From assembly GCA_003134595.1 (NCBI GenBank), contig PLBS01000068.1, positions 1 to 44,219 on the forward strand: a stretch of 44,219 nt of DNA. The letters run 5' to 3'. Positions 2,905-30,733 of this stretch are shown here, in pieces (the first letter of the stretch is position 1; every line of letters begins with the position of its first letter). Below the pieces are notes generated by a model. That model saw nothing but the letters and a program-made list of their open reading frames with translations. It ran no database searches and was not told the DNA's origin. The DNA is from Gallionella sp. (GTDB lineage: Bacteria > Pseudomonadota > Gammaproteobacteria > Burkholderiales > Gallionellaceae). The position numbers were made by a program, and so were the translations under genes.

Positions 2905-3003
2905 TATAACCAACGACTTACCAAGCGTTTTTTGCCTGGTTAGTCGGATGGCTATAACCAATGACTTGGCTGTCGTTATCGGACAGCCTAGTCAGATGGC
3001 TAG
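2905..3003 (+). repeat. Two tandem copies of a 51-nt double-hairpin repeat (units A and B)
   Basis: Each unit has an outer left arm TATAACCAAYGACTT, a 21-nt inner hairpin of 7 + 7 + 7, and a right arm TAGTCRGATGGCTA. Unit A (2905-2954) has inner stem ACCAAGC/GCCTGGT with loop GTTTTTT. Unit B (2953-3003) has GGCTGTC/GACAGCC with loop GTTATCG. The arms are imperfect complements of each other. The units repeat with a 48-nt period, sharing two bases. They sit between the convergent stops of the PaaK-like and VOC genes, where they could act as a bidirectional terminator. Two more copies lie near 14.87 and 30.69 kb. Confidence 0.85.
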
Positions 3004-3023
3004 TAGTTTTACCAGTGGTTCCA

Positions 3024-3554
3024 TCAGTACAAATCCTTTTCTTCGAGTGCCCTGAACAGATGCTCTACATTTTGGTCGGTAAACGAACCGCCCCGCCGCT
3101 CGATCAATTCCACCCTGACACCGGTCATAGGATCACGCCGCAAAAAAATCTGGCGTATCCCTTCATTCCCTATAATTGGCGTGTCGGCCATGTTACCAGC
3201 TTCGGTTGCCCGAAGAATTGCTTCATCCAGATCCGCAACTGCGAAGGCGATGTGGTGCACCCCGGAACCAAACTTCGCCAAAAATCTGGATATTTGCGAG
3301 TTAGGACAGGTGCCTTGCAGCAGAACCACCATTGTCCGGCCGGTTTCCATCACAGCGGACACCATGGACGAATGTTCGCCTTTGGTCGCGCGACGCTCCA
3401 CCAGCAAGAAGCCCAGGTCCCTGGAATACCAGCGGATAGCCTCATCAAGATTTTCTACGGCGATTGCGATGTGGTCTATTTCCACGATCAAATCGGCAAG
3501 TTGTGTCGCCAGAGGTGGCCTCATTCCGTATAGATTAGAGCTTGTGTGTTGCAT
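3024..3554 (-). CDS. VOC-fold (glyoxalase/epimerase-like) protein
   Basis: This is a 176-residue vicinal-oxygen-chelate protein. Two beta-alpha-beta-beta-beta modules are visible. The first starts at IDHIAIAVENLDEAIRWY (about residue 26) and the second at VHHIAFAVADLDEAI (about residue 97). His in both HIA motifs and Glu in the final VELIER strand are positioned as the metal ligands of methylmalonyl-CoA epimerase-like enzymes. The length and spacing favour an epimerase or hydroxyphenylpyruvate-dioxygenase-like lineage over lactoylglutathione lyase. No propionate or methylmalonyl pathway is nearby, so the substrate stays open. It follows the methyltransferase gene by 97 bases on the same strand and may be its distal cistron. 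Confidence 0.8.
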   Translation of the reverse strand: MQHTSSNLYGMRPPLATQLADLIVEIDHIAIAVENLDEAIRWYSRDLGFLLVERRATKGEHSSMVSAVMETGRTMVVLLQGTCPNSQISRFLAKFGSGVHHIAFAVADLDEAILRATEAGNMADTPIIGNEGIRQIFLRRDPMTGVRVELIERRGGSFTDQNVEHLFRALEEKDLY

Positions 3555-14703: not shown

Positions 14704-15001
14704 TGAACCCAGACAATTCATTAGGCATGTCATCACACTCTGAGTATGAACTGCATCGCTCCTCCCCTGCTCCCTCCCTGACAAGGGAGGGCTGGGGTGG
14801 GTTGGGGAGGCTGGGAGGGGTTGGGGTTTCAACCAAAACCAAACCCCCTCTGATAAAGCTACTAGCCATTCGACTAGGCCATCAACTGACGATAGCCAAG
14901 TCGCTGGTTATAGCTCCCCCTTATCAGGGGGAGAACTGTGTTGCGGCATCATTTAAAACGGCTGGAGTTGAGCGCCATTTTCTCCTAATGGATTATCCGA
15001 G
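14704..15001. repeat. Repeat-filled glcD-glcE spacer, including double-hairpin unit C (14862-14912)
   Basis: This 298-base spacer holds a GC-rich palindromic block (CCCTCCCTGACAAGGGAGGG and a G-rich run). It also holds one 51-nt double-hairpin unit on the minus strand and CCCCCTTATCAGGGGG. Unit C has arms CTAGCCATTCGACTA and AAGTCGCTGGTTATA. Its inner hairpin is GGCCATC/GATAGCC, with one G-T pair. An ATG overlapping the glcD stop opens a 101-codon frame made of these repeats, which I do not regard as a gene. Confidence 0.75.
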
Positions 15002-30653: not shown

Positions 30654-30682
30654 TCCCTCTCCTCAATCCTCTGGTGAAACTC

Positions 30683-30733
30683 CTAGCCATCTGACTAACC
30701 CAGCAGAAGACGCTGGGCAAGTCATTGGTTATC
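30683..30733 (-). repeat. 51-nt double-hairpin repeat, unit D
   Basis: The arms are CTAGCCATCTGACTA and AAGTCATTGGTTATC, with inner hairpin ACCCAGC/GCTGGGC (7-bp stem with one G-T pair) and a 7-base loop. It lies in the moxR-DUF58 gap next to the ACGGGCATGGC element and a CCCGCAAGCGGGG palindrome. The same arms occur in units A, B and C with different inner stems. Confidence 0.85.

Follow-up and report, generated by a model that had tools for sequence, protein, structure and literature searches.

The four repeats of the analysed window, i.e. the whole 44,219-nt stretch of DNA, are best read from their sequences as members of a new family of REP/RPE-like mobile palindromes that are recognised largely by shape. 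The units probably represent a non-autonomous palindromic element that is moved in trans by an enzyme reading the shape of the folded strand. Selection or constraint on structure, under which the core of the stem varies, is strongly supported by the covariation of the aligned copies.

All four units proposed by the sequence-only reading were present in the window, two on each strand. A covariance model that we built recovered exactly these four (E values of 3e-16 to 5e-15) and nothing else notable. The number of arm matches in the real window was never equalled in shuffled windows, and the units folded 3 to 5.5 SD better than shuffles. The parts of the units are:

2907..2954, plus strand: hairpin 1, the outer element of a nested pair, inner stem ACCAAGC/GCCTGGT (from sequence and covariance model)
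2955..3002, plus strand: hairpin 2, of the element that has entered the first one at GGCTA|GTGG, with inner stem GGCTGTC/GACAGCC (from covariance model and nesting rule)
3003..3014, plus strand: 12-nt tail of element 2, GTAGTTTTACCA (from sequence and tail consensus)
3015..3026, plus strand: 12-nt tail of element 1, GTGGTTCCATCA (from sequence and ORF list)
14863..14910, minus strand: hairpin with inner stem GGCTATC/GATGGCC, flanked by two FAD-oxidase-type genes that run in the same direction
14851..14862, minus strand: 12-nt tail of this hairpin, GTAGCTTTATCA, the flanks being the halves of a CCCCCTTATCAGGGGG-type palindrome (from sequence)
30684..30731, minus strand: hairpin with inner stem GCCCAGC/GCTGGGT, flanked by the gene of a MoxR-type ATPase and the co-directional ORF that comes next
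30672..30683, minus strand: 12-nt tail of this hairpin, GGAGTTTCACCA, the flanks being the GCGGGA|GAGG palindrome target (from sequence and target class)

The repeat had been described as a double hairpin of 51 nt. It is 48 nt long, with the leading TA belonging to the target or to a preceding GGCTA, and each unit forms a single hairpin with internal mismatches. The tandem arrangement of two copies with a 48-nt period was confirmed (2907-3002) and arises by nesting of the second element. The two genes that converge on this nested pair (2907-3026) are of the AMP-binding type and the glyoxalase type. The TCA that ends the tail of element 1 is at the same time the TGA stop of the minus-strand glyoxalase-type gene (3024-3554). 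The anatomy of the element, comprising tail, target, nesting and in-gene copies, had been missed.

In aligned copies the element consists of the 48-nt hairpin and a 12-nt tail, GTWGTYNCATCA, which follows directly after GGCTA and brings the total length to 60 nt. The hairpin with the GCCCAGC stem and its tail GTAGTCATATCA are found together as a single block at numerous loci, where the outer tails differ. Hairpin and tail therefore form one unit: as defined by these alignments, the mobile unit is hairpin plus tail and not the hairpin alone. Clusters follow the order hairpin 1, hairpin 2, tail 2, tail 1, so that the whole second element must have entered the first at GGCTA|GTAG. Such nesting of whole elements yields equal numbers of hairpins and tails. 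We counted 158 clusters with a ratio of 1:1 and 13 with 2:2, and in most inspected 1:2 clusters the first hairpin was diverged or truncated. Other self-insertions were found at TTA|GTC within the resident 3' arm (loci L010 and L013). A second form of the element carries an 8-nt tail, TGCARAGC, and sits after CGT or GGT in hairpin loops, including those of its own family and of GTAG-REPs. At one locus (L302, G122:C15:450000-467000) four copies of 8-nt-tail hairpins reside in the loop of a GTAGGAGCCCGAT REP and resemble REP passengers. Two genomes (G253 and G218, loci L285-L295) contain head-to-tail arrays of 41-nt hairpins and 8-nt spacers with a 49-nt period; several of these arrays reach contig ends and are therefore probably longer.

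The genome from which the window derives, a Gallionella-type MAG, contains at least 144 copies when searched with a loose pattern, while the reversed-pattern control gave 0. Copies occurred in 54 of 61 genomes of the same genus. Within the order the carriers were sporadic (15 of 200 genomes, from several families), and at class level 3 of 369 genomes sampled outside the genus carried the family. Named relatives with the pattern are Gallionella, Sideroxydans, Ferrigenium and MAGs of other Gallionellaceae. A search of Rfam 15 at the gathering score returned a tRNA elsewhere in the window and no credible match at the units, and our literature search found no paper linking Gallionella to such repeats. 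As far as the literature searched shows, this is a real family that has not been described.

The insertion target was SSA|R over 167 distinct sites, with A at position -1 in 92% and a right flank starting with G in 77% and with A in 22%. Insertion often occurred inside other palindromes or repeats. Frequent targets were the GCGGGA|GAGGG palindrome, which is common to carriers in other families, CGGA|ATGACG, and repeats of the CTTCGACA|GGCTCAG type. A direct comparison is provided by the host repeat CGCAACGCAGCA|GTTGGGATG, which exists in an empty form and carries the element exactly at this junction in loci L004, L006 and L182. The empty site reads CGCAGCA|GTTGGG and the filled one CGCAGCA[element]GTTGGG, i.e. 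no target duplication is generated. Nor is a YA duplicated, because L004 has GTA to the left of the element and the element's own CATCA at its end. The repeat CCTCTAAAAATTCAGAGTTCGCCC...GATTTTTAGAGG (L004, L006, L015, L207-L236) is repeatedly a target; it has 22 matches in the own genome and is present in 27 of 41 genus genomes. We also considered whether stable hairpins flank all insertion sites. This was rejected: the excess over re-paired flanks was modest only, since many targets lie in one arm of a palindrome and not in its loop.

Elements are also found inside protein genes. Among 75 elements from 117 named contigs sampled, 27 lay within an ORF that extended for at least 60 residues to either side, and random in-silico insertion gave an expected fraction of 0.32. 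For the own genome the corresponding values were 3 of 27 elements and 0.24. An enrichment in genes was thus rejected, the observed numbers not exceeding random insertion. The element usually has three open frames out of six, with fractions near those of shuffled-stem controls, and for this reason selection for open frames in the core was likewise rejected. The in-gene copies would survive because of these open frames and because the host sites would tolerate about 20-45 extra residues. Housekeeping genes with in-frame copies include mutS, cysS, murC, polA, recJ and sucB. Comparison of MutS, CysRS and MurC with solved homologues places the insert between residues that directly follow each other in the homologue. 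For MutS, the insert lies within the span of Pfam domain III, and the homologous residues 335/334 are contiguous across it; for CysRS and MurC the alignment to the solved homologues breaks exactly at the insert. Further hosts identified by Pfam were PolA, GlnE, MetG, PrmC, MurE, SucB, RecJ, an MmeI-type methyltransferase and CobQ. The CysRS genes of three genomes (L117, L283, L330) contain an in-frame copy at the same place; for mutS, two genomes (L143, L066) have copies at two different sites. A sister form of the hairpin, CAAGCAGCGACTAG...GTAGTCGATTGCTTG, lacks the in-frame TAA of the ordinary element. Five copies of this form were retrieved from 76 genomes, each of them in frame within recJ, hsdM or the gene of a type IIG methyltransferase, and a related copy is located in cobQ (these loci, including the cobQ relative, are L338, L339, L341, L343, L344 and L350). 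Errors in MAG assembly are unlikely to account for the set of in-gene copies as a whole, while single loci may be due to them.

To identify a mobilising gene, we searched 61 genus genomes and 12 more distant carriers with PF01797 and a RAYT alignment and read the flanks at about 60 loci. This search yielded no mobilising gene. None of the 30 RAYT, 12 IS200-type and about 20 further Y1 loci had a unit next to it, apart from a single 8-nt-tail unit that was carried within the loop of a REP; at the IS200-type loci there was no unit at all. Clustering of the ORFs near copies gave housekeeping families only, such that a recurrent neighbour gene was rejected as mobiliser. An autonomous copy, in which hairpin and tail are split around a gene, did not occur among the loci examined either. 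Searching the 61 genomes for tails without the usual hairpin revealed the in-gene sister hairpin and no gene-carrying split copy.

RAYT genes are nevertheless common in the genus, and the units could form an unrecognised REP/REPIN class mobilised by the RAYT (TnpA-REP) transposases of these genomes. We consider this unlikely, though it is the likeliest of the alternatives. Hairpin copies were more numerous in genomes with RAYT (median of 20 vs 3, Mann-Whitney p=3e-4, a value not corrected for phylogeny), the first bases of the tail are GTAG or close to it, and the organisation in tandems and clusters is REP-like. Published REP families share further features with the Gallionella units: they are high-copy hairpins that show complementary stem changes, occur in clusters and are in some cases intragenic, namely in genes of replication and repair (PMC3733652). 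The Gallionella family is also mainly extragenic, with 144 copies and about a third of the elements in ORFs on the 117 named contigs. However, the check for a linked RAYT gene, which the sequence-only reading had suggested, did not find such a link. The RAYT genes were flanked by other GTAG-REPs; only 5 of the 30 had a unit within 1.5 kb, the nearest at about 240 bp, and in no case was it adjacent. Several carriers, including G022, G046, G048 and G037, have no detectable RAYT, and the complete carrier G040 has only a broken one. The tag is also placed differently. The 5' flank of the units is a variable SSA, where neither GTAG nor CGTC points into the hairpin. The GTAG is found on the 3' side, is oriented away from the hairpin and is degenerate in its third base (GTWG). 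Moreover, the units nest head to tail and do not form the inverted doublets of REPINs and BIMEs, and they insert into GTAG- and CGTC-type REPs. In several Gallionella-type genomes a RAYT gene is situated beside a queA-like gene, with flanks of GTAGGGCGGGC-type REPs (L164, L166, L237-L239).

The units had been set apart from plain REPs and MITEs. This is valid with respect to the REP tag, the RAYT link and the MITE ends: flush terminal inverted repeats with a target duplication are absent, since the ends TAACC and CATCA of the element are not inverted repeats of each other and filled sites show no duplication. The contrast drawn to REPs in the stems was overstated, because published REP families carry complementary changes as well (PMC3733652). 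In sum, the element works like REP/RPE-type palindromic mobile DNA and does not show those defining features of RAYT-linked REPs and MITEs that were tested.

From the outside inwards the hairpin comprises TA-A·C-CCA, a G·A or A·G mismatch with a bulged A, five pairs, a T·T mismatch, a core of 6-7 bp and a loop starting with GT. For the covariation analysis we selected 35 diverse copies by their outer arms only. Standard pairs filled 97.5% of the pair cells compared to 84.1% in shuffles, double-sided changes numbered 87 compared to 25.7, and the covariation score was 0.414 compared to 0.144. The signal was lost when the partner was slid by one column. Among the distinct copies whose core is 21 nt long, about 149 in number and retrieved without any condition on the core, 145 kept at least 6 of the 7 inner pairs. 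The earlier proposal of selection on structure, with inner stems that vary and yet pair, is thus strongly supported, also by further copies. The 7 + 7 + 7 layout of the core is the commonest form, though forms of 42 nt and 47 nt are frequent in the family, and a loop beginning with GT, noted earlier for all four units, was seen in 143 of the about 149 copies. In other families the outermost arm TAACCA/TGGCTA is replaced by TAAGCA/TGCTTA or CAAGCA/TGCTTG, with pairing, tail and target being kept.

Pairing of this kind could also be a mutational by-product of template switching between the arms of a quasi-palindrome instead of selection on shape. Template-switch correction makes arms complementary without selection, and the outer arms are indeed imperfect repeats of each other. 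Such correction should, however, erase mismatches too. Over 191 distinct hairpins, positions 13 and 35 were T-T and unpaired in all 191. Positions 7 and 41 were G-A in 130 and A-G in 53 and never an A-T pair, i.e. the mismatch stayed a mismatch while switching sides. Pairs next to these positions drifted: positions 8 and 40 were C-G in 141 or T-A in 47, and positions 9 and 39 were G-C in 171 or C-G in 18. That mismatches stay fixed next to pairs that drift speaks against simple template-switch correction, which we regard as very improbable. Slightly less probable still is a structured RNA or terminator kept for gene regulation, with the covariation reflecting RNA function: the strong covariation with G-T pairs and the location of some copies between convergent genes, as for the nested pair in the window, would suit it, but there is no consistent T tract, no Rfam family at the units and no orientation preference (27 convergent, 25 and 15 tandem, 15 divergent and 47 inside ORFs), two window copies (14863-14910 and 30684-30731) lie between co-directional neighbours, one pair of which is probably in a single operon, and in-frame copies in essential genes as well as the nesting rule are left unexplained. 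A terminator role in particular was rejected given the lack of orientation bias and one weak terminator-like match.

The closest known systems include the Rickettsia palindromic elements (RPE), short transposase-free palindromes that are dispersed between genes and in frame within unrelated, often essential genes (PMC10969869). The Gallionella units likewise are palindromic repeats dispersed in the genome and in frame in unrelated protein genes, a likeness we draw from the description of RPEs only. They differ in length (60 nt compared to about 150 bp), in their hosts (free-living Gallionellaceae/Burkholderiales compared to Rickettsia), in the fixed target within other palindromes, in self-nesting, in the separate 12-nt tail and in a stem that is free to vary. 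The ends of IS200/IS605 elements and their miniature derivatives have a single mismatched hairpin, no target duplication, an end resembling the target and a strand-asymmetric layout. Here we find a mismatched hairpin, insertion 3' of a short fixed target with no duplication, a right end and a target that both end in A, and strand asymmetry. In contrast, there is one hairpin per element, the target is SSA|R, and no Y1 gene lies between or beside the ends, nor did any of the 12 IS200-type loci provide a linked or parental Y1 gene with the same ends. BOX elements of Streptococcus pneumoniae are modular small repeats with varying unit numbers. Our units are modular as well, but their number is explained by the nesting of whole elements with hairpins equal to tails. 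By inspection the units are no integron attC sites, with arms TAACCA/TGGCTA that have no GTT partner and junctions outside the hairpin, where attC sites have AAC/GTT triplets in their outer boxes and recombine within these.

Movement of the element in trans is probably accomplished by a single-strand (HUH-type) transposase. HUH (Y1) transposases of the IS200/IS605 type recognise single-strand hairpins, cleave at the end of the element and insert it 3' of a short target. Four features lead us to favour an enzyme of this kind: a hairpin whose mismatches are fixed, a layout that differs between the strands, insertion without duplication, and an end that is target-like. The enzyme would recognise the folded single strand by its shape, for which the stem lengths, the T-T, the G-A or A-G mismatch with the bulged A and the conserved CCA/TGG would provide the cues. 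It would read the end of the tail as cleavage site, and the strand would be inserted 3' of a short target ending in A. Shape recognition, which we infer from the covariation, would leave the base pairs free to drift and so explain the varying core. Lagging-strand insertion would predict a strand bias; none was seen relative to the local GC skew, for which stretches of 3-8 kb give weak power. Only tentatively do we propose the more specific combination that a mobiliser other than RAYT reads the hairpin by shape and that a stop-free version of the element lies in frame in genes of free-living bacteria. Selfish DNA with occasional exaptation is the most economical reading.

With its hundreds of copies, fixed targets and self-nesting, the family offers a compact natural system from whose sequences alone the rules of structure-based DNA recognition can be deduced. 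Since no transposase is linked to the copies, the question of who moves orphan palindromes, which has also been raised for CGTC REPs, becomes directly testable here. In-frame palindromic selfish DNA, best known from Rickettsia, is extended to free-living iron-oxidising betaproteobacteria, where in-frame palindromes reach core enzymes such as MutS, PolA and CysRS.
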